From contig RDXX01000011.1 in NCBI GenBank assembly GCA_004292955.1, forward strand, positions 109,336-173,335: a stretch of DNA of 64,000 nucleotides, written 5' to 3'. Positions within the stretch are counted from its first letter, which is position 1, and the number at the start of each line of letters is the position of its first letter. Position numbers and translations under genes: made by a program. The notes beneath the pieces were generated by a model, which was not told the DNA's origin, ran no database searches, and saw only the letters and a list, made by a program, of their open reading frames with translations. Positions 42,500 through 50,627 of the stretch are shown in pieces. This DNA is from Oscillatoriales cyanobacterium. Lineage in GTDB: Bacteria; Cyanobacteriota; Cyanobacteriia; Cyanobacteriales; Microcoleaceae.

Positions 42500-43099
42500 A
42501 TGACTCAAAATCTCAATTTTGCCAACCAAAACTTGCGGAACCGTTCATTTAAAGGGCTGGATTTATCAGGGGCGAACTTCAGCGGTTGCGACATTCGAGG
42601 CTGCAATTTCACCGGGGCGATTTTGAGAGGGGCAAATTTTCAGGGCGTCAGAACCGGACAAAGCCGCCGCCGAGTAAAAAAATTGATTGCTAGGGCTGGC
42701 GTAACAGCGGTGATAGTGACGGCTGCTGGGGCTTTGATTGGACTGATTGGCGGGGTGGATGCGGGGGCTGTGGCTGTGGCTGGGACTGCTGCGACGGCGA
42801 TTGCTGCGACTCGGGGCGAGGCGGGAATTGTGGCGGGGGCTGTAGCTGGGGCTGCTGCTGCGATCGGCGCTAACGGTATTGTGACATTTTTGGGCGGGGA
42901 TACTCTGAGGGGAATTGGTTTATTTTTGGTTTCTGGGGTTATTTTGGGGTTATGTGCGATCGGCTTTTTTATCGCTGTTGAAGAAATCGAAAAATTATCA
43001 GTAACGTCGTTTAGAAAAGCTGATTTAACTGGCGCTATATTCGATCCGGGGGCGGTTCTCGATGCTGATTTTTCCGATGCGCGAGGCTTGCCGTGGTAA
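42500..43099 (+). CDS. Pentapeptide-repeat protein with glycine/alanine-rich membrane segments
   Basis: 199 residues. Residues 5-50 are pentapeptide repeats (FANQNLRNRSFKGLDLSGANFSGCDIRGCNFTGAILRGANFQG). Then come three hydrophobic, Gly/Ala-rich segments (VTAVIVTAAGALIGLIGG, AGAVAVAGTAATAIAATRG…, GIGLFLVSGVILGLCAIGFFIA), then a last pentapeptide pair FRKADLTGAIFDPGAVLDADFSDARG. It is probably membrane-anchored; function unknown. The start is unusual because the heptamer array ends at the base before ATG, so initiation would not use a Shine-Dalgarno site. Confidence 0.75.
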   Translation: MTQNLNFANQNLRNRSFKGLDLSGANFSGCDIRGCNFTGAILRGANFQGVRTGQSRRRVKKLIARAGVTAVIVTAAGALIGLIGGVDAGAVAVAGTAATAIAATRGEAGIVAGAVAGAAAAIGANGIVTFLGGDTLRGIGLFLVSGVILGLCAIGFFIAVEEIEKLSVTSFRKADLTGAIFDPGAVLDADFSDARGLPW

Positions 43100-43282
43100 C
43101 CTGCACAATTAGTTCGCGTTTGGTAAAATAACCCTGATAACGTTAGGTATGAAAGCACGTCCGCCGCTACTGGGAGGACGTTAAGCGTGCGATCGAGGCG
43201 GGTATTTTTTCGGCGGATTAGAAGCTGATTGATGATGGTGGAAGATGTTTTGGGCGATCGTACCCACAGACTTATGTTAAAT

Positions 43283-43408
43283 TAGACCTCTTGCAAAAAT
43301 AGCTAAGACGGGATCTCCGGCCCATCCCACAAAAATCATCTTTTCTTGTGGAATGGGCCGGAGAGCCCGTCCTAAAATTTGATTAAAAGGACTTTTGCAA
43401 AAGGTCTA
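43283..43408. mobile_element. MITE with TAGACCTCTTGCAAAA-type ends, copy 1
   Basis: About 126 bp. The left end is TAGACCTCTTGCAAAAAT and the right end is the complement of TAGACCTTTTGCAAAAGT. Inside is a long hairpin (GGGATCTCCGGCCCATCCCAC… against …TGGAATGGGCCGGAGAGCCC). TA at both ends fits a Tc1/mariner-IS630-type target. It lies 21 bp beyond the stop of the dynamin-like GTPase gene. The other copy is at 59505-59674. Confidence 0.8.
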
Positions 43409-43429
43409 TTTTCCTGTATTTTCAGTCAC

Positions 43430-45742
43430 TCACAGTACCTCCGGCAAACGACTTCTTTTTAAAGCAATAGATAATTGCCTTAATCGTTCGCTAACTTCTA
43501 AATTCGATTCTTCTGACTTCAAGTTATCAGGTATTTCAGCAAACAGAATTGAATTTCCCTGCAACCATTCATTAAGAGCAACCCCAGTCCAAGTACCTTC
43601 TTTGTCTCTAAAACTATCAACTAAACCCTTCAGTTCTTGAATACAGTATGACTCGAAACCAGACGCACCGAAGATTGCATAGCGTAGGTATTCTTCAAAC
43701 GCATTAATATCATTCTCTACCTCAAAAACTACAGATTCTTGTGAAGATATGAGGTCTTTAGAAACATCTACTACTATCTGCGTTGCTACCCCAGCAATTT
43801 GTCTTGCTACTCCTGGCACTCCCAAGACTTGTTGCCGAAGGTCAGGATTAAATAGTAAATCCGAGCCATATTTTACATATTTTTTCAGAACTTTAAAGGC
43901 AGCTTCTTCGCCACTATAGTAGTTATCAACAATTTCAATATCTACTCCTAAACTTTTGATGATTTTATTTCGAGTATCACTATTAACTGGGCCACGAATC
44001 AGCGCTTCCGAAACTGGACGGGCAAAACGTAAAAATAATACGCTTAAGCTATTCTCTAGTTTTGCTAAAAAATACTCCTCTGAATTTTCAATAAGCCTGG
44101 ATTTTACTTGGTTACTTTCCCATAATAAACTTGTCATGTATTCAACTAATTTTAATGCTTCATCCTTAAGTTCTAAAGCAAGTTGATGAGCAATTGAAGA
44201 TAGAAGCTTACTAATATCACCATACAAACTATCACGCCAAGCAAAATTGGCTTTCATGCGATCAAACTCTGGATTTGAGTTAGCCAGAAAAATCGTATCT
44301 TTCTTGTTAAATGTTTCCTCCCTAAGTTTCTTCATTTCAGTCTCGACGATTTGTAAATATCGCTCTCTAAATTTTTCTATTTGAGTAAATGACTTAGCAG
44401 TTGAACTCTCTAAGGGTTTGTTGACAACAGAATATTCATAGTATTTTTGTAAGTCAGCTTTAATTATTTCCCATTTTTGATTCCACCATTCTGTAAATAA
44501 AACTCGCCGATTATTTTCTTCAAATAGCTTTGCTTCTTCAGGATTTTCAGGATACTTTTTACTGACTGTAATATAAATTTCTTCAGAATTGCTAATAATT
44601 TTATTGATAGACGCTTCGCATCTTTTCTTTAAAATAGATACACGCTCAGTGTTGATATAGTTAAAAATTTTGTCTTTAATTTCTGGAATGCCCGTGCCAT
44701 CTTTAGTGATAATTTTTCCATCGGCAATTCCTGTTAATCTCTTCAACTGAGCTTGAATATTACTTGCGTCCCCAATCTCTAACTTAGTCTGTTCTCCTGC
44801 TAAACCATTCAAAATTAAATAGGCTCCCGCTGAACCATATACAATGCGTTCAGGTGGAAGGTTTGCACGCCTTAACCAATCTTGGGAAGCTTCTTCAATA
44901 TGTGTTTTAAGCGCCTCTGCACTACCTAATGAATCAATCCGACTTAAAAAAACAAACAGCTTATCAGCAACGGTGACGTTTTTATCGCCAAGTTCTGTGA
45001 ATTTTATTATTTCTAGTTCCTTTTCTCGGAGGCTAGTAAACCGTTGTACCAATATTACAGCATCACAGTCAGAGAGCATTTCTTGTGCTTCATCAACGTG
45101 CTTTGCTAAACCTGAATCTAAACCCGGAACATCATAAAAAACAATCCCTTCAGCTTGAGCAAGTTTGTTAGTATAAAGTCGAGCTTCTAAAACAGCGTGA
45201 GCATACTTTTCATCTGCTACATATTTTTTTAGCGGTTCTCTAATATCTTCTAGTCTAGTAAATGAGAAAGTCACATTACCTTCTCTTCTTACCTGTTGTA
45301 AAGTTATTTCGTTTGCTCTTATGGTATTTAGGTCTTCGTTCGCCCCTACTTTCTCAAGCTCTTTTAGTAAATTTAGAAACTCTTCATCAGTTCTCGCTTG
45401 TACTTCCAGCCTTTGTTCGGACTCATTTTCAACTGAATAAATTTGGGTGGTTGTAAATGTACATCTTCCTCCCTTCGCTGGAAGTAAATCGCATTCTAGC
45501 CAAGCATTAATAAATGTGCTTTTTCCGGCTTTTTCTAGCCCAACAACAGCGATGCGAAACTCACGCTTTCTCAGTCTTTCAAGTTGGCGACGAGTTGGTT
45601 CTGCTTCTTGTAAAAGTACCTCTTTTAATCGAGCCGGAACTTCGGCTTGGGGTAAGTTGGCTAAATTTACCGCGTGTCTTTGGATGTTTAAAGCGTCAGT
45701 GAGACGAGTCTCATAGTAAGAAGAAGCTGTTTTCCAGTCCAT
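43430..45742 (-). CDS. Dynamin-like GTPase B, third gene of the operon
   Basis: 770 residues. The GTPase domain has G1 GLEKAGKST at 68-76, a G2 threonine region (GRCTFTTTQIY), G3 VFYDVPGLDS near 197-207 and G4-like FLSRIDS near 268. A long helical region (~370-770) follows, rich in Glu/Lys, with hydrophobic segments near 640-680 (LGVPGVARQIAGVATQIVV) that could contact membrane. This is the bacterial dynamin-like layout. AAGGA sits 8 nt before the ATG at 45742, 11 nt after the stop of the 187-aa gene, so the two are co-transcribed. A+T-rich codon use differs from the flanking housekeeping genes. Confidence 0.85.
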   Translation of the reverse strand: MDWKTASSYYETRLTDALNIQRHAVNLANLPQAEVPARLKEVLLQEAEPTRRQLERLRKREFRIAVVGLEKAGKSTFINAWLECDLLPAKGGRCTFTTTQIYSVENESEQRLEVQARTDEEFLNLLKELEKVGANEDLNTIRANEITLQQVRREGNVTFSFTRLEDIREPLKKYVADEKYAHAVLEARLYTNKLAQAEGIVFYDVPGLDSGLAKHVDEAQEMLSDCDAVILVQRFTSLREKELEIIKFTELGDKNVTVADKLFVFLSRIDSLGSAEALKTHIEEASQDWLRRANLPPERIVYGSAGAYLILNGLAGEQTKLEIGDASNIQAQLKRLTGIADGKIITKDGTGIPEIKDKIFNYINTERVSILKKRCEASINKIISNSEEIYITVSKKYPENPEEAKLFEENNRRVLFTEWWNQKWEIIKADLQKYYEYSVVNKPLESSTAKSFTQIEKFRERYLQIVETEMKKLREETFNKKDTIFLANSNPEFDRMKANFAWRDSLYGDISKLLSSIAHQLALELKDEALKLVEYMTSLLWESNQVKSRLIENSEEYFLAKLENSLSVLFLRFARPVSEALIRGPVNSDTRNKIIKSLGVDIEIVDNYYSGEEAAFKVLKKYVKYGSDLLFNPDLRQQVLGVPGVARQIAGVATQIVVDVSKDLISSQESVVFEVENDINAFEEYLRYAIFGASGFESYCIQELKGLVDSFRDKEGTWTGVALNEWLQGNSILFAEIPDNLKSEESNLEVSERLRQLSIALKRSRLPEVL

Positions 45743-45753
45743 TGATATATTCC

Positions 45754-46317
45754 TTACACGCGGTTAAATTTTTCTAAACCAGATACAGATAGATATTCCA
45801 GACAAGCTAATTCTTTAACAGTACCCTGTCCATTTGGGGGAAGATTTCTTTTTAAAATATATTGAACTTTTTTCCCAATCATTTCTGGCCCATCAGCAAT
45901 GTCAATCCTGAAGTAAAATTCTCTTTGTTCACTTACATCTGTAATATCTTCCTCAGTTAATTTTAGACGCTGCTGTATGATATTCGCATCTTCAGGACTT
46001 GTACATAGAAAATATGAAGCATTTTCTATTAGTGTTTCTATATCAGAGACATTAATTGTATGATTTTCTCTGATATTTCCCACCACCGATGCTGGAACAA
46101 TAAGACACAAAGCTACAGACACGGAAGACTTTTTTGGAGAAGGAGGTAGAGATGGTCTATTATTTGATGATTCTCCTTGTATTTGCTTCCTCTTTGGTTC
46201 TTGAGAATTTGGCCTCTCCACAAATTTGGTAGCTGTAGCAGCAACAAAATCCTGGATAGCTGTACCAACAACATCCTGGATAACTTTAGCAGTATCCCTA
46301 ATTTTTTCAAAATCCAT
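45754..46317 (-). CDS. 187-aa protein of unknown family between two dynamin-like GTPases
   Basis: The N-terminus (MDFEKIRDTAKVIQDVVGTAIQDFVAATATKFVE) is a single amphipathic helix. A polar linker rich in Ser, Pro, Asn and Gln follows (~37-66), then a folded C-terminal part (VSVALCLIVPASVVGN… to CLEYLSVSGLEKFNRV). I recognise no domain. GGAG precedes the ATG at 46317 at a normal distance; 55 nt separate it from the upstream GTPase and 11 nt from the downstream one. Its position suggests an adaptor that links or regulates the two GTPases. This is inference from order only. Confidence 0.7.
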   Translation of the reverse strand: MDFEKIRDTAKVIQDVVGTAIQDFVAATATKFVERPNSQEPKRKQIQGESSNNRPSLPPSPKKSSVSVALCLIVPASVVGNIRENHTINVSDIETLIENASYFLCTSPEDANIIQQRLKLTEEDITDVSEQREFYFRIDIADGPEMIGKKVQYILKRNLPPNGQGTVKELACLEYLSVSGLEKFNRV

Positions 46318-46372
46318 TTCTTTATCGCTCCAATAGCAAATTTGATTTGCGTTCCTTAATACTCATTTGAAT

Positions 46373-48784
46373 TTAACACTCCTGTTTTAAGATTATGTCG
46401 AAGCTCGAAAATTCTTCTGCTAGGTTTTGAGCTTTTTGTTTCATAGGTTGCCAAATGTTTCTTTGCTTTTCATAATCTAGAGTAATTTCTTGGTTTGCTT
46501 TATCGAGTCTTTCCTGATAACGGTCAATAATATCACTCTGAATTTTGTCTACATTTTTTTTTAGACAGTCAATTTGTTCTAGTAACCAGCGTGCAACTTG
46601 ATTTACTCTTTCTGACTCTTGCCCTTTCGCCTGCTCTATCCAACCTTCCAGTAATTTTTCTGTGCTGGGTAGTTCAGCATTATCACTAGAACGTGGTTGA
46701 TACTCAGTTTCATAAATGGTTTTTTTACCTATCCACAATGTATACCAAGTTCGTTTTTGTTTTGGAACCTGTACTGCTTCTTCCCAAGTCCCTTGTGTAA
46801 TAGCAAATCCTGCTTTAAACCGAAAATTAAATTTTAAATTACTCTCGACTTTAATCAGTTCTGATTCAGGAAATTTAATCGCTATGTCAGGTGCACGAGA
46901 ATTTGCTCCATTTTCAAAATAAGACAAGTGGCAACGAAACAATTCGGACACAGCCTGATGAATTCTATTTAATTCTTGAGTAGAAATCTGTTTTAATACA
47001 TCCTGTATAACAATGTTGAGATGGATAGCTAGTTCATTAAGTTCCTCATTGAGTTGTTTGAGTTTGTTTTTATCTGCCTCTGTTCTTGCTTCCATTGTTT
47101 TTCCTTCTTTAGCAACGGAAGCTTTGTAGCCTAAGTCAACTAAACGGTTCAAGTTTCTTGCTAGTAAATTGACATTTAAAACATTTGCTCTTTTTAAATT
47201 CGGACTGTCTAACTCTACCCTTCCAGTTTCTAAAGACTTTGCCACTGCTTCTAAGACTTGAGTAATTCCTTTTTGAAATTCCTTCTCCCATGAATAAAGT
47301 GGAAATAATTTTTCTCCTAATTTCTTGTATGGCTCTTCCTGTTGGAGTTCCCTAATTACGGTTCTTATATAATTCACAACGTCATCTTGTGACTGTTTTG
47401 CAAGAACCTGTTTGACTTTTGTATCTAGTCTTTCAAACGGCTGTTTTAAGTTTGTATCGCTAGTTTCTAAGAAGCCTTCAAGCTCTGCCCTAATTTTTGA
47501 TATTTTTTCACATTCCTCTTGATAACCTGCTTCTGAACTGTTAAGAATAGCTGTTGTTGTTTGTACAGCCCATTCCGTTACTGCATTTCCAGCAGCCAGA
47601 TTAAAACGTTCTATAATTTGTGGAATTACTAGCTGTGGGAAGTGTTCAGTAATATGTTCTCTTAAGTGTTGCTGAAACTCTTCTGCATAAGATTTTTTCC
47701 ATAATGCTTCAGCAACTCGGTTTCGGTCGTGTCTAGACCATTTTTGTACGTTACGTGGCAAGTCTTCTAATATATCTTCATCAATTAATCCATTAAAATT
47801 GTTGTCCGCTTTTTTACACGCCTCAGCACTAAATATTTCATCATAATTTTGGATCTGAAGAGCCAGTAAAGCCGGCCATGTACTAAGTTTTACAACCTGC
47901 AACTTCTCAATCTCTTCTGTATATTCTTTTAATTGTTCAGTCAATTCACCTTTAATACTGCGGATAGCATTTTCAAAAAAGCGATTTTCTGTTTCAGGCC
48001 AATTTCTATCGGAGCGAAAAACATCAATACGATTAAGAGTAAAAAGCATACGCGCCGGAGAACCACCTAAATCTTTGACCTGCTGTACAACTTCTTGCAA
48101 CAAGCTTTTTACTTTCTGTGCATCGGTTTCTGCACTATTGTATGTTACTATGCACAATGCCTCTCGGCACTGTTGAATCACATTTGCGTTACCTTGATCG
48201 CCCACATAGGCTAAACCAGGTAAATCAAGAATTTTTACCCTAGTTCCTTGTGGCAGTTCTAGTTTTGACTCTTTGACAAGCCGGAAAGGGTAAAAGATTG
48301 TCGATTGTGGACAAGCTAAATTCGGTTGTTTTTCTCTATTTTCAATATAACTTATCATTGCTTCATATAAGCGCTGATAAATTTTCTCCTCTCTGATACC
48401 TCTCCATTCTCCACACTCCCACAATGCTCCTGGTGTTTCATGGATTATTAGAGACTTTTCCTTGCTATATTCGATAGTGACTGCCCCTGCGCTCATTTCA
48501 CTTACGGCTACGGGGACAATTTCGGCTCCACATAACAAATTTACCAAAGTGCTTTTCCCACTACTGGTGGTTCCTGTGGTCGCCAGAGTCAGAGTTGGAT
48601 TACGGAGTTCATCAACCAGATTACTTAAAGCCTCGTCTAATTTACTAGAAAGTTCTTGTATTTCAGGCTGATATGTATCTGGTAAATGTTCGGAGATTTC
48701 TGTAGAAAAATTATTCCAGTATTTAGCAAGCAGTTGAGCTTGGAATTCTACTTCGTCAAAAACTTTGTATAATTGTTTACTCAT
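46373..48784 (-). CDS. Dynamin-like GTPase A, first gene of the operon
   Basis: 803 residues. G1 is GTTSSGKST at 71-79, G2 lies in SEMSAGAVTIEYS, G3 is ILDLPGLA near 186, and G4 is TLNRIDVF near 250. The C-terminal ~400 residues are helical with coiled-coil stretches (KNKLKQLNEELNELAIHLNIV; DKIQSDIIDRYQERLDKANQEI). A compact segment (FNFRFKAGFAITQGTWEE…RTWYTLWIGKKTIYETEY) could be a membrane-binding or paddle region. Sequence differs strongly from GTPase B, so the pair is heterotypic. ATG at 48784 has no clear Shine-Dalgarno site. Confidence 0.85.
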   Translation of the reverse strand: MSKQLYKVFDEVEFQAQLLAKYWNNFSTEISEHLPDTYQPEIQELSSKLDEALSNLVDELRNPTLTLATTGTTSSGKSTLVNLLCGAEIVPVAVSEMSAGAVTIEYSKEKSLIIHETPGALWECGEWRGIREEKIYQRLYEAMISYIENREKQPNLACPQSTIFYPFRLVKESKLELPQGTRVKILDLPGLAYVGDQGNANVIQQCREALCIVTYNSAETDAQKVKSLLQEVVQQVKDLGGSPARMLFTLNRIDVFRSDRNWPETENRFFENAIRSIKGELTEQLKEYTEEIEKLQVVKLSTWPALLALQIQNYDEIFSAEACKKADNNFNGLIDEDILEDLPRNVQKWSRHDRNRVAEALWKKSYAEEFQQHLREHITEHFPQLVIPQIIERFNLAAGNAVTEWAVQTTTAILNSSEAGYQEECEKISKIRAELEGFLETSDTNLKQPFERLDTKVKQVLAKQSQDDVVNYIRTVIRELQQEEPYKKLGEKLFPLYSWEKEFQKGITQVLEAVAKSLETGRVELDSPNLKRANVLNVNLLARNLNRLVDLGYKASVAKEGKTMEARTEADKNKLKQLNEELNELAIHLNIVIQDVLKQISTQELNRIHQAVSELFRCHLSYFENGANSRAPDIAIKFPESELIKVESNLKFNFRFKAGFAITQGTWEEAVQVPKQKRTWYTLWIGKKTIYETEYQPRSSDNAELPSTEKLLEGWIEQAKGQESERVNQVARWLLEQIDCLKKNVDKIQSDIIDRYQERLDKANQEITLDYEKQRNIWQPMKQKAQNLAEEFSSFDIILKQEC

Positions 48785-49176
48785 GTGTTAAATACTGGTG
48801 TTGAGAGTGAATATGTATCCTATTTAACATATTTGAGTCGCAACTGATAGAGGGCTGACAGCCGCACTGTTTAATTATGACTCTAGGGTATTATACTATA
48901 CTTGTAAAGATACGATCGCACTTTCTTTAAAGAATTTTACACACAGGCTCTTGAGATTGTTGCAGGTCTTCAATCAGATGATCGGCGGGCGTTGCTTAAT
49001 GCAGGTATGAAACGATCGCCCGCTCGCCGAACGAGCGCTCTCTATTGTAATAAATTATACCCATATTCCCCAAAAGTCGATCGCCCGCACAGTCAAACAC
49101 CAGTTTTGTGCGAGCTCTGTGATTGTCGTTTGCGTGCACGAGGGATCTCGCACGTTAAGAGTTGGTAGACTGACAA
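48785..49176. other. Upstream region of the dynamin-like operon
   Basis: 392 bp with no gene. TATACTATACTTG-type A/T-rich sequence near 48890-48905 is a possible promoter region for the minus-strand operon. CGATCGCCCGCTCGCCGAACGAGCGCTC near 49014-49040 is a short palindrome. Nothing else recognised. Confidence 0.35.
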
Positions 49177-49392
49177 TTACCTATTCCTCACCCATTCCCG
49201 GAATTCTCGCACTGCTGCGGTTGCGCCTGTCGTTGGAGTGCGATCGATCGGTCTGTTGCGATTTTCATGTTCCGGTAGCGGCACCATAATTTCTAATTGA
49301 CCTTGATGATAAGCAATTCTGGCGGAACGTTGATTTCCCAGTTCCGCGAGCAAATCTTCATATAATTTCCAACTGATGTTTGGTAGTAAAAC
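49177..49392 (-). pseudogene. Remnant of a Uma2-family (DUF820) nuclease-like gene
   Basis: Read on the minus strand: LPNISWKLYEDLLAELGNQRSARIAYHQGQLEIMVPLPEHE, the N-terminal signature of Uma2-family PD-(D/E)XK proteins, then an unrelated tail to a stop at 49177. There is no start codon (an in-frame TAA lies just upstream) and the nuclease core is missing, so it is a decayed fragment. Confidence 0.75.
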
Positions 49393-49493
49393 TCTTTATT
49401 CAGAGGACGTTGATATTGTTAACATTTGAGTTGGGTTTGTATTAATGACTATTTGTTTGTGTAAAATAGCAGGGAGTGCAAAACATTGACTTT

Positions 49494-50627
49494 ATGACTA
49501 AGTTTCCCCACGATCAGTTTGCTAAAGAATACCTTCAAGAGTTATTGTCGCCTCTGGGAGAAGTAGAAACCAGCAAAGATGTCACCGCTGAAGTCAGAGA
49601 AATTGATGTCTGGTTTCAACCCACTTCTTTTGAGGGCGAATATGTTCAGAGTTTGGGTTTATTGGGTAAGATGGCTGCTACTGTAGCTGTGATTGAGCCG
49701 TTTCGCAATCCGGTTAATACTGAGGGAATCTTCAGTTGTGTGGTAAAACTATTAAATAGTAGGGCGAAACTGGGGCGGCAGACTAATCGAGAAGACCAGC
49801 GTTTAGAAGAAAGACAATTGCCGAGGTTGTGGATTTTAACTCCCACTGCTTCGGAACTTTTACTGGACAGTTTTGGTTTTCGGGTTCCCGAAGAGTCCGA
49901 GGGCTGGGCGAAAGGAGTTTATTTTTTAACTCAGGTTTGGAGAGTCGGACTAATCGCGATTCACCAGCTACCGAGAAGCCCCGAGACTATGTGGTTGCGG
50001 ATGTTGGGCCGCGGGCGGGTACAGGAACAGGCGATCGCAGAACTCAGTGCATTGCCTGTGGATAATCCACTCCGAACTAACGCGCTAGAATTATTGTACA
50101 TCTTGCAGGCAAATTTGCAAGCGAATACACCACCTATTCCCGCAGGGGATGATGAAGATCAGGAGTTAGTTATGGCGATTGCACCTCTTTTTCAACAACA
50201 TTTAGAAGCTGCACAACAACAAGGCCTCCAACAAGGCCTCCAACAAGGCCTCCAACAAGGCCGGGAAGAAGGACAGCGGATGATTTTGGAGAGTTTTTTG
50301 CAAGTTAGATATGGGGAGTTAGACCCACGAACTGTCGCATTAATTCTACCGATTTCGGCTTTGCCTGTTGCCGAGTTCACCTTGCTGTTAGTGCAATTAT
50401 CTACTCTGCCTGCGGGAGAAAATGAACACCAAAATGTGCAAATTTTGTTGGCACAAACAGTTATGGAAAAAACCTTCATTCAATCGGGACAATTAGAAGA
50501 AATCCCGGTAAATCTCATCCCCGATCTGCTGGCTTTATCCCCAGACAATTTATCATCGCTGTTGGCAGACTTGCCTCAATTATCGATTGAAGAACTGATG
50601 GCTAGATTGGCACAATCATTGACTTAG
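49494..50627 (+). CDS. Rpn/DUF4351-like cyanobacterial protein with QQGL repeats
   Basis: 377 residues from ATG at 49494. The N-terminus MTKFPHDQFAKEYLQELLSPLGEVETSKDVTAEVREIDVWF is typical of a cyanobacterial PD-(D/E)XK-like group, with Glu-Val-Arg-Glu-Ile-Asp as a possible active-site strand. Near residue 240 are three exact 12-bp repeats giving QQGLQQGLQQGL (50217-50252), then QQGREEG. The C-terminal helices (LVQLSTLPAGENEHQ…) look like a dimerisation region. It is related in architecture to the Rpn gene at 20121, but I see no close sequence match outside the repeat. Confidence 0.65.
   Translation: MTKFPHDQFAKEYLQELLSPLGEVETSKDVTAEVREIDVWFQPTSFEGEYVQSLGLLGKMAATVAVIEPFRNPVNTEGIFSCVVKLLNSRAKLGRQTNREDQRLEERQLPRLWILTPTASELLLDSFGFRVPEESEGWAKGVYFLTQVWRVGLIAIHQLPRSPETMWLRMLGRGRVQEQAIAELSALPVDNPLRTNALELLYILQANLQANTPPIPAGDDEDQELVMAIAPLFQQHLEAAQQQGLQQGLQQGLQQGREEGQRMILESFLQVRYGELDPRTVALILPISALPVAEFTLLLVQLSTLPAGENEHQNVQILLAQTVMEKTFIQSGQLEEIPVNLIPDLLALSPDNLSSLLADLPQLSIEELMARLAQSLT
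50217..50264 (+). repeat. In-frame 12-bp tandem repeats (QQGL units)
   Basis: CAACAAGGCCTC three times exactly, then CAACAAGGCCGG. It encodes the same Q/G/L motif as 20301-20360 but with CAA, GGC and CTC codons, indicating separate expansion. Confidence 0.95.

Follow-up and report, generated by a model that had tools for sequence, protein, structure and literature searches.

The window analysed here is a 64,000-nucleotide stretch of an Oscillatoriales cyanobacterium genome (contig RDXX01000011.1, positions 109,336 to 173,335, forward strand). It contains an operon of three genes, which we call A, M and B: two dynamin-like GTPases with a small putative adaptor between them. Judged by gene order and homology, A, M and B are a conserved unit, and in the window's lineage the trio is an accessory insertion. 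Its features point to an accessory membrane-directed GTPase system of cyanobacteria, most likely acting against phages (or on envelope injury), a reading to which we give a probability of roughly 0.55. The system would have a core of dynamin and membrane adaptor with variable specificity and interchangeable effectors, probably anti-phage, and it may be an undescribed bacterial immune system.

The A-M-B operon

All three genes lie on the minus strand and are transcribed in the order A, M, B, with gaps of 55 nucleotides (nt) between A and M and 11 nt between M and B. The coordinates of the open reading frames (ORFs) bear out the layout and spacing given in the initial annotation, which was made from the sequence alone. 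Lengths of proteins are in amino acids (aa). No RNA element was found at the locus.

46373..48784, minus strand: gene A, an 803-aa dynamin-like GTPase; its G-domain half (about codons 1-400) is conserved
From about codon 400-420 of gene A, minus strand: A tail, belonging to the exchanged block
45754..46317, minus strand: gene M, a 187-aa putative adaptor; a short form without the N-domain and predicted membrane helix of most relatives
43430..45742, minus strand: gene B, a 770-aa dynamin-like GTPase; the most conserved member, with 96% identity to congener G209
45755..47580, minus strand: exchanged block, A tail plus M; ends approximate, from identity profiles against three congeners
46216..46314, minus strand: M residues 2-34, a predicted amphipathic helix at the site of the relatives' N-domain and membrane helix
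46242-46289: tandem duplication of 24 nt within the predicted amphipathic helix, in the 5' part of M
45757..46113, minus strand: M C-terminal domain (C-domain), residues 69-187, the part aligned in all 30 members

Distribution was surveyed in cyanobacteria and in plasmid and phage collections. Of 291 genomes of the order, 28 have M, and every one of these also has A. In 27 of them M has all or part of A beside it, and in the remaining one, G234, the two genes are each at the end of a separate contig. All or part of B likewise comes after M in 27; G153 has no B although its contig continues. Among 35 mapped loci, the window's included, 19 have A, M and B intact and in order, eight are cut by contig ends, seven are broken, and in L068 A is shortened and a further, partial A is present. 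The seven broken loci have a split A (L083, L090, L094 and L070, the last also missing M), a split B (L079) or no M (L072 and L075). B or a fragment of it was found in 18 of 386 genomes sampled across the phylum, and all 18 belong to the same order. The distribution is patchy within the genus of the window, with M in 4 of the 16 genomes listed, and no neighbour gene recurs in more than six of the mapped loci. The initial annotation had allowed that the three genes might not be conserved together; with 19 of 35 loci intact and M in 28 genomes, they are.

Several of these loci are rearranged. In L072 (9648-10712, G074) the head of A stands next to the tail of B in one 354-aa ORF and M is gone. 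L075 (8871-10035, G060) retains a remnant of A head and B tail in two overlapping ORFs, also without M. The two remnant genomes belong to different families. L089 (6376-14168, G009) contains the duplication A(truncated)-M-A-M-B, and L077 (11788-13388, G210) has two M genes.

Both outer proteins exceed the Pfam Dynamin_N cut-off of 27 bits, A with 48.6 bits (1.2e-12) and B with 57.8 bits (1.7e-15). Both have the motifs of a dynamin-type G domain (G1 GxxxxGKS/T and G3 DxPG): GTTSSGKST and DLPGLA in A, GLEKAGKST and DVPGLDS in B. The G, K and S of G1 and the D, P and G of G3 are invariant in alignments of 22 A and 26 B sequences, window included. On these motif and profile grounds A and B are dynamin-like GTPases, and they are clearly different ones, as the initial annotation had said; their profiles have little in common beyond the P-loop region (hhalign probability 15).

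In the lineage of the window, the parts of the conserved unit have different histories. Compared with the DNA of congeners G209, G264 and G288, the window is 85-99% identical over the first 1,200 bases of A, 74-78% over the next 150, and 62-69% over most of the A tail, with 79% near its end. M itself is 54-70% identical; the M-B junction reaches 79-89% and B 88-100%. Among the congeners themselves (two pairs profiled) the A tails are 95-100% identical, except for one 150-base stretch at 83%. In quick trees of 21 genomes, the clade of the window and its three congeners is kept for the A head (support 88, not starred) and the B tail (95), and is rejected by the approximately unbiased (AU) test for the A tail (p 5e-6) and M (p 8e-4). 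The A tail of the window groups with the f33 genomes G201, G251 and G261 (support 90), and its M groups with G201 (support 93). By these sequence comparisons, the A tail and M were exchanged as one block in the lineage of the window, and the GTPase half of A and all of B were not. Within family f1, protein distances (15 pairs, 6 genomes) correlate at 0.96-0.99 among A head, B head and B tail and at 0.95 between A tail and M; across the two groups the values are 0.39-0.70. Over all 21 genomes every region correlates, at 0.70-0.96. The ratio of nonsynonymous to synonymous polymorphism (pN/pS) is highest for M in all six pairs compared, three of which come from the same three congeners: 0.63-1.21, versus 0.19-0.41 for A and 0.08-0.26 for B (Fisher p 0.006 to 4e-14).

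M proteins and the sister operon

The initial annotation could not name the family of the middle protein, and the searches agree: Pfam, NCBIfam and PADLOC contain no family that the window's M matches convincingly, and it has no relative among solved structures. The 30 aligned M members also gave no convincing match to Pfam (best E 0.012), and PHROGs yielded a weak match to an uncharacterised family (1e-3, 47 residues). M is 250-300 aa long in 20 of the 30 members, which makes the 187 aa of the window unusually short. In a typical M, an N-domain of about 85 aa is followed by a predicted membrane helix, and a linker leads from there to a C-domain of about 120 aa. In the trio set, a segment with hydropathy of at least 1.6 lies upstream of the C-domain in 16 of 21 M proteins, and one more reaches 1.55; the M proteins of the window, G095, G038 and G080 have no such segment. 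This upstream count was used in place of a whole-protein count of membrane helices, which in some M proteins includes stretches of the C-domain. A cytosolic position of the C-domain is suggested only by the charges around the helix, and some segments in the counts used were misplaced. The N-terminus of the window's M is predicted to form an amphipathic helix, with a moment reached by 3.6% of shuffles. This short helix stands in the position of the membrane helix, and the protein may bind membranes reversibly.

Homologs of A also occur in a second operon. A matches 71 genomes, 37 of which have solely a second dynamin-like protein (DLP), A', that is 27-44% identical to A, mostly in the G domain. 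Both A and A' are present in G209, G288 and G279. The sister operon encodes A' (about 835 aa), P2 (169-313 aa) and P3 (about 430 aa). Among loci selected by A' or P2 matches, the order A'-P2-P3 is found in 22 of 24 of a first set and 12 of 15 of a second, several of them broken. A can be aligned with A' along the length of the proteins (hhalign probability 100, E 3e-57). M and P2 match with a probability of 96% (E 4e-9) over the membrane helix, the linker and part of the C-domain, or 83% and 77% with just three P2 sequences; the controls versus P3 give 0.1%. Searched with the P2 profile, 3 of the 28 M genomes yield their M (2e-7 to 8e-6) and 25 do not; the M profile recovers 8 of the 15 P2 ORFs of the second locus set. 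P2 is matched in 41 of 291 genomes, a count that includes the three cross-matches to M and a few fragments. The N-termini of P2 are about as varied as those of M. Both proteins have a common C-domain behind a variable N-terminus, and both are encoded directly after an A-type DLP. On profile evidence M and P2 are homologous, and we propose an M/P2 adaptor family.

P3 matches the PADLOC JukB family in 21 of 21 cases (best 6e-16). Judged by these matches, the sister operon keeps the homologs of A and M and has a JukB-like protein in place of B. Co-variation is weaker there: the partial correlation of A' tail and P2 given A' head is 0.53, with 0.30-0.35 for the other pairs. The sister-operon loci (L154 6921-11493, L155-L173, L175, L176, L208 and L210-L220) are scattered through the order and are often decayed. 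One of them, L165 (G274), lies on a contig of 111,206 bases, equal in size to the conjugative plasmid NZ_CP040300.1 of Nostoc sp. TCL26-01, which indicates that the sister operon can be plasmid-borne.

Possible roles of the trio

To our knowledge, the functions of most bacterial dynamins are unknown. In the trio, M would hold A at a membrane by contact of the M C-domain with the A tail, and the A tail and M would form the variable pair that gives specificity. What this pair recognises could be a membrane that a phage has made or that has been damaged, or a phage protein located there. Assembly of A, driven by GTP, would then recruit a third component to act on that membrane: B would remodel it in the manner of a dynamin, and in the sister operon the JukB-like P3 would form pores in it. 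For JukB itself, pore formation on the early-infection vesicle of jumbo phages has been reported (PMC13282480, in the part consulted). A broader and more tentative possibility is a two-branched immune family resembling the cell-autonomous GTPase immunity of animals. Its A-type dynamin and anchored adaptor would be a rapidly diversifying recognition unit, exchanged in blocks, that marks phage-made or phage-damaged membranes and calls either a second dynamin or a JukB-like pore former.

The exchange of a variable block, the frequent loss of the trio and the JukB-like alternative effector fit a conflict better than maintenance, and for this reason an anti-phage purpose is favoured. The initial annotation had raised phage defence for operons of this kind. 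The JukB-like gene of the sister operon, the exchanged block, the fast evolution of M and the patchy, decaying distribution give that proposal more weight than it had there, and we keep it in conditional form. There are precedents among dynamins: DynA delays phage lysis in Bacillus, as described in PMC8844932, and dynamins are listed among cyanobacterial defence genes, citing the Bacillus work, in the relevant part of a survey (PMC11265339). If the reading is right, the operon represents an undescribed adaptor family and a modular, dynamin-based type of defence in cyanobacteria. A dynamin half that was exchanged together with a putative adaptor offers both a partner and a specificity module that can be put to the test; through the JukB-like third gene, this branch of dynamins would be linked to pore-forming effectors of a type that acts in defence against jumbo phages, which form vesicles.

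A number of observations weigh against this reading. Unlike many defence genes, B has no match in 72,556 plasmid records or in 50,697 phage records. M is absent from the same plasmid records, in which A has one distant match, on a Nostoc plasmid. A scan of viral contigs returned no relative of B. The neighbourhoods were scanned for defence genes without a background control. Of 303 neighbour ORFs, 170 lay within 3.5 kb and were shorter than 1000 aa, and 136 were scanned, 34 having been dropped by hand (10 psaA/psaB-like genes, near-duplicates between related loci, an M gene, and some housekeeping-looking or contig-end genes). Among the PADLOC matches, listed for 25 of 148 families, are PDC-S03 (at most 7 members), a Cas12f type (3; probably IS605 OrfB genes), Csx1 (3) and, with two each, AriA, AbiLi, mad2, mad3, LeoA, LeoBC and HEC-02A. 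The pattern of two modules is found within one family, f1. The fast evolution of M could reflect relaxed constraint and is not proof of positive selection. The placement of M is uncertain, given a hydrophobic stretch that is also found in the C-domain, the window's included, and single-sequence structure prediction of M gives a mean predicted local distance difference test (pLDDT) score of 41. Part of the match between M and P2 is the membrane helix itself, and its controls were P3 and not another membrane protein. The similarity of P3 to JukB, in the one member displayed, covers 125 residues (10-134; positions 14-135 of a 323-position profile), and P3 reaches the solved JukB chain at only E 0.96.

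A rather unlikely alternative is accessory membrane maintenance without any phage: A and B would together make up a heteromeric dynamin, tethered by M, for repair or remodelling of the thylakoid or plasma membrane under abiotic stress. In family f7, all five trio loci (L063, L064, L091, L092 and L094) adjoin a pair of 731-751-aa genes that we take to be psaA and psaB of photosystem I, an association that speaks for maintenance and against defence. Known bacterial DLPs pair up and bind membranes (parts of PMC6104087 and PMC4159319), many DLPs occur in cyanobacteria (PMC5827413, section on DLP groups), and SynDLP is discussed as a repair protein in a passage of PMC10104851. It would be unusual for a maintenance gene set to be so patchy even in one genus and to be broken in 7 of 35 loci, and the exchanged block and the JukB-like gene of the sister operon would be unusual in such a role too.

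Among known systems, LeoABC of enterotoxigenic E. coli (ETEC) and Eleos are the nearest in layout. Eleos is composed of LeoBC and LeoA. Like the trio, these systems have two different DLPs per operon and a membrane anchor supplied by a small gene product. They differ in that the A of the window is one unsplit 803-aa ORF with both G1 and G3, whereas in ETEC the first DLP is split into LeoC and LeoB, and in that M has no GTPase motif. M was considered as a LeoC-like GTPase half and rejected, having no GTPase or Dynamin_N match in Pfam, NCBIfam or PADLOC. LeoC has a predicted membrane helix at its end, as stated in a passage of PMC4159319, and Eleos is mentioned in the part of PMC10482375 consulted. 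The PADLOC LeoBC profile is matched by 21 of 22 A members (best 2e-13; window A 1.8e-7), and the best of these stands ahead of all seven control DLPs from cyanobacteria; the B of the window matches LeoA at 2.4e-7. However, all seven controls match both LeoA (2e-8 to 7e-16) and LeoBC (7e-7 to 4e-10), that is, LeoBC as well or nearly as well as window A and LeoA better than window B, and among the 26 B members only 3 match LeoA and 6 match LeoBC. Because the controls match the Leo profiles too, membership in Leo/Eleos is not claimed, though the best A relative leaves the case of A open. That the trio is a known Leo/Eleos type, LeoBC and LeoA with an extra gene, is improbable given the unsplit A and an M that is not derived from a GTPase. 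Of the Leo parallel drawn in the initial annotation, the layout stands; M is no split GTPase half and the Leo matches are unspecific.

We would give equally little credence to a signalling set like RdcA/RdcB of E. coli, with M as an accessory subunit that enables the DLPs to switch a membrane sensor or enzyme encoded elsewhere. The resemblance is that of a dynamin-like GTPase, RdcA, with a small partner of unknown family, and NCBIfam CrfC is matched weakly by A (E 0.049) and B (E 0.00065). At 11.9 and 18.1 bits, versus a cut-off of 1146, membership of A and B in the CrfC/RdcA family was rejected. The passages of PMC6510439 on which this comparison draws present RdcA and RdcB as soluble proteins and do not mention a second dynamin. 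Most relatives of M have a predicted membrane helix, and the absence of any neighbour gene recurring in more than six mapped loci also argues against this reading.

Other comparisons are more distant. Of the named systems, Juk (JukA/JukB, the jumbo-phage killer) resembles the trio only through the third gene of the sister operon; the trio has no JukB-like gene, and A, M and B have no match to the Juk families up to E 1. The sister operon itself shares with the trio a homologous A-type DLP and adaptor in the same order, and differs in its JukB-like third gene of about 430 aa where the trio has a second DLP. Cj-DLP1 and Cj-DLP2 of Campylobacter are paired DLPs in one operon, active only together; as described in part of PMC6104087, their genes are side by side with none between, and the assembly domain lies within one of the DLPs. 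The best solved-structure matches of the A profile are the vertebrate immunity-related GTPases IRGB10 and IIGP1 (E from 0.002). Their best stretches end at about residue 86, in the P-loop region, and are no sign of a common function.

The window's genome has eight ORFs that match Dynamin_N, including an ortholog of BDLP1 with a tandem partner and an ortholog of SynDLP. Nostoc BDLP1 and its neighbour ('Tandem A/B', PMC5827413) resemble A and B in being tandem, substantially differing cyanobacterial DLP genes. The section of that paper on DLP groups names KGK, tandem, HSR1 and chaperone groups and mentions no middle adaptor. Neither A nor B is the BDLP1 ortholog: the BDLP1 structure 2j68 is reached at 0.028 (A) and 0.0017 (B), in P-loop stretches only. 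The true ortholog is a separate gene (L151, E 0 over 686 residues to 2j68), and identity between A or B and the BDLP1 tandem pair is only local, at 25-49%. L151 (5142-9152) has a second DLP gene adjoining it. SynDLP (Slr0869, KGK clade) is the best solved-structure match of B (3e-6; 4e-5 by profile), but B was rejected as its ortholog; the best stretch spans residues 189-290, and the full-length ortholog lies elsewhere in the genome (L152 7361-9796, E 0, about 23% identity to B). No KGK gene lies downstream of B, the next gene being a convergent pentapeptide-repeat gene. An extended P-loop ending NALL/I is reported for nearly all cyanobacterial DLPs in the same section of PMC5827413; A has GKSTLVNLLC and B has GKSTFINAWL, one residue off.

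No description of the trio or of a dynamin-JukB operon was found among the best matches listed from open-licence papers (no preprints) in PubMed Central. The initial annotation had considered that the operon might prove to be a well-described housekeeping set, and no such description was found among the papers listed.

Insertion site and neighbouring genes

The trio lies in a segment that is absent from the sister species, and the surrounding features are as follows.

43101..49461, no strand: segment absent from sister species, with about 160 nt in its place in G166
42500..43099, plus strand: pentapeptide-repeat gene, left flank of the insertion site, convergent to B
49476..50627, plus strand: ORF for a 383-aa protein, bordering the insertion site on the right
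43304..43374: inverted repeat with 32-nt arms downstream of B, terminator-like or like a miniature inverted-repeat transposable element (MITE)

The 383-aa protein is presumably Rpn-like; its best Pfam match has an E of only 0.042. The site is empty in all five aligned sister species (G166, G593, G219, G092 and G588), in which the pentapeptide gene and the 383-aa gene are side by side with 58-160 nt between the matching parts; G166 matches window positions 42869-43100 and 49462-49769. In G264 the trio occupies the same slot. In G209 the slot is empty and the trio lies elsewhere (L150, L082), as it does in G288 (L148, L084). The slot holds other genes in G200, which is the closest sibling by the right-hand marker (DUF3352, 97%). 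This varied occupancy among sister species and congeners indicates frequent gain and loss. Terminal repeats or target duplications of the insertion were not noticed in the repeat scan, and no further search was aimed at them.

The 2-kb windows of the trio block have a G+C content of 0.36-0.38, and most others in the window have 0.42-0.49; the trio as a whole has 0.367 versus 0.467 for its 6-kb flanks. The initial annotation had taken this A+T-richness as a sign of acquisition. The A+T-richness is present, and the acquisition is shown by the empty sister sites. The argument from base composition does not carry over: in all 19 loci compared the trio has a lower G+C content than its flanks, by 0.004 to 0.108, so low G+C is a property of the operon and weak evidence of recent acquisition.

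The slot of G200 (L135 4937-11729) contains a 2050-aa protein with a subtilase domain and, by eye, a deaminase-like C-terminus, together with a DUF416 protein that may be its partner. In G001 (L137) a related-looking gene end and a transposase-like pair, both judged by eye, lie near the slot.

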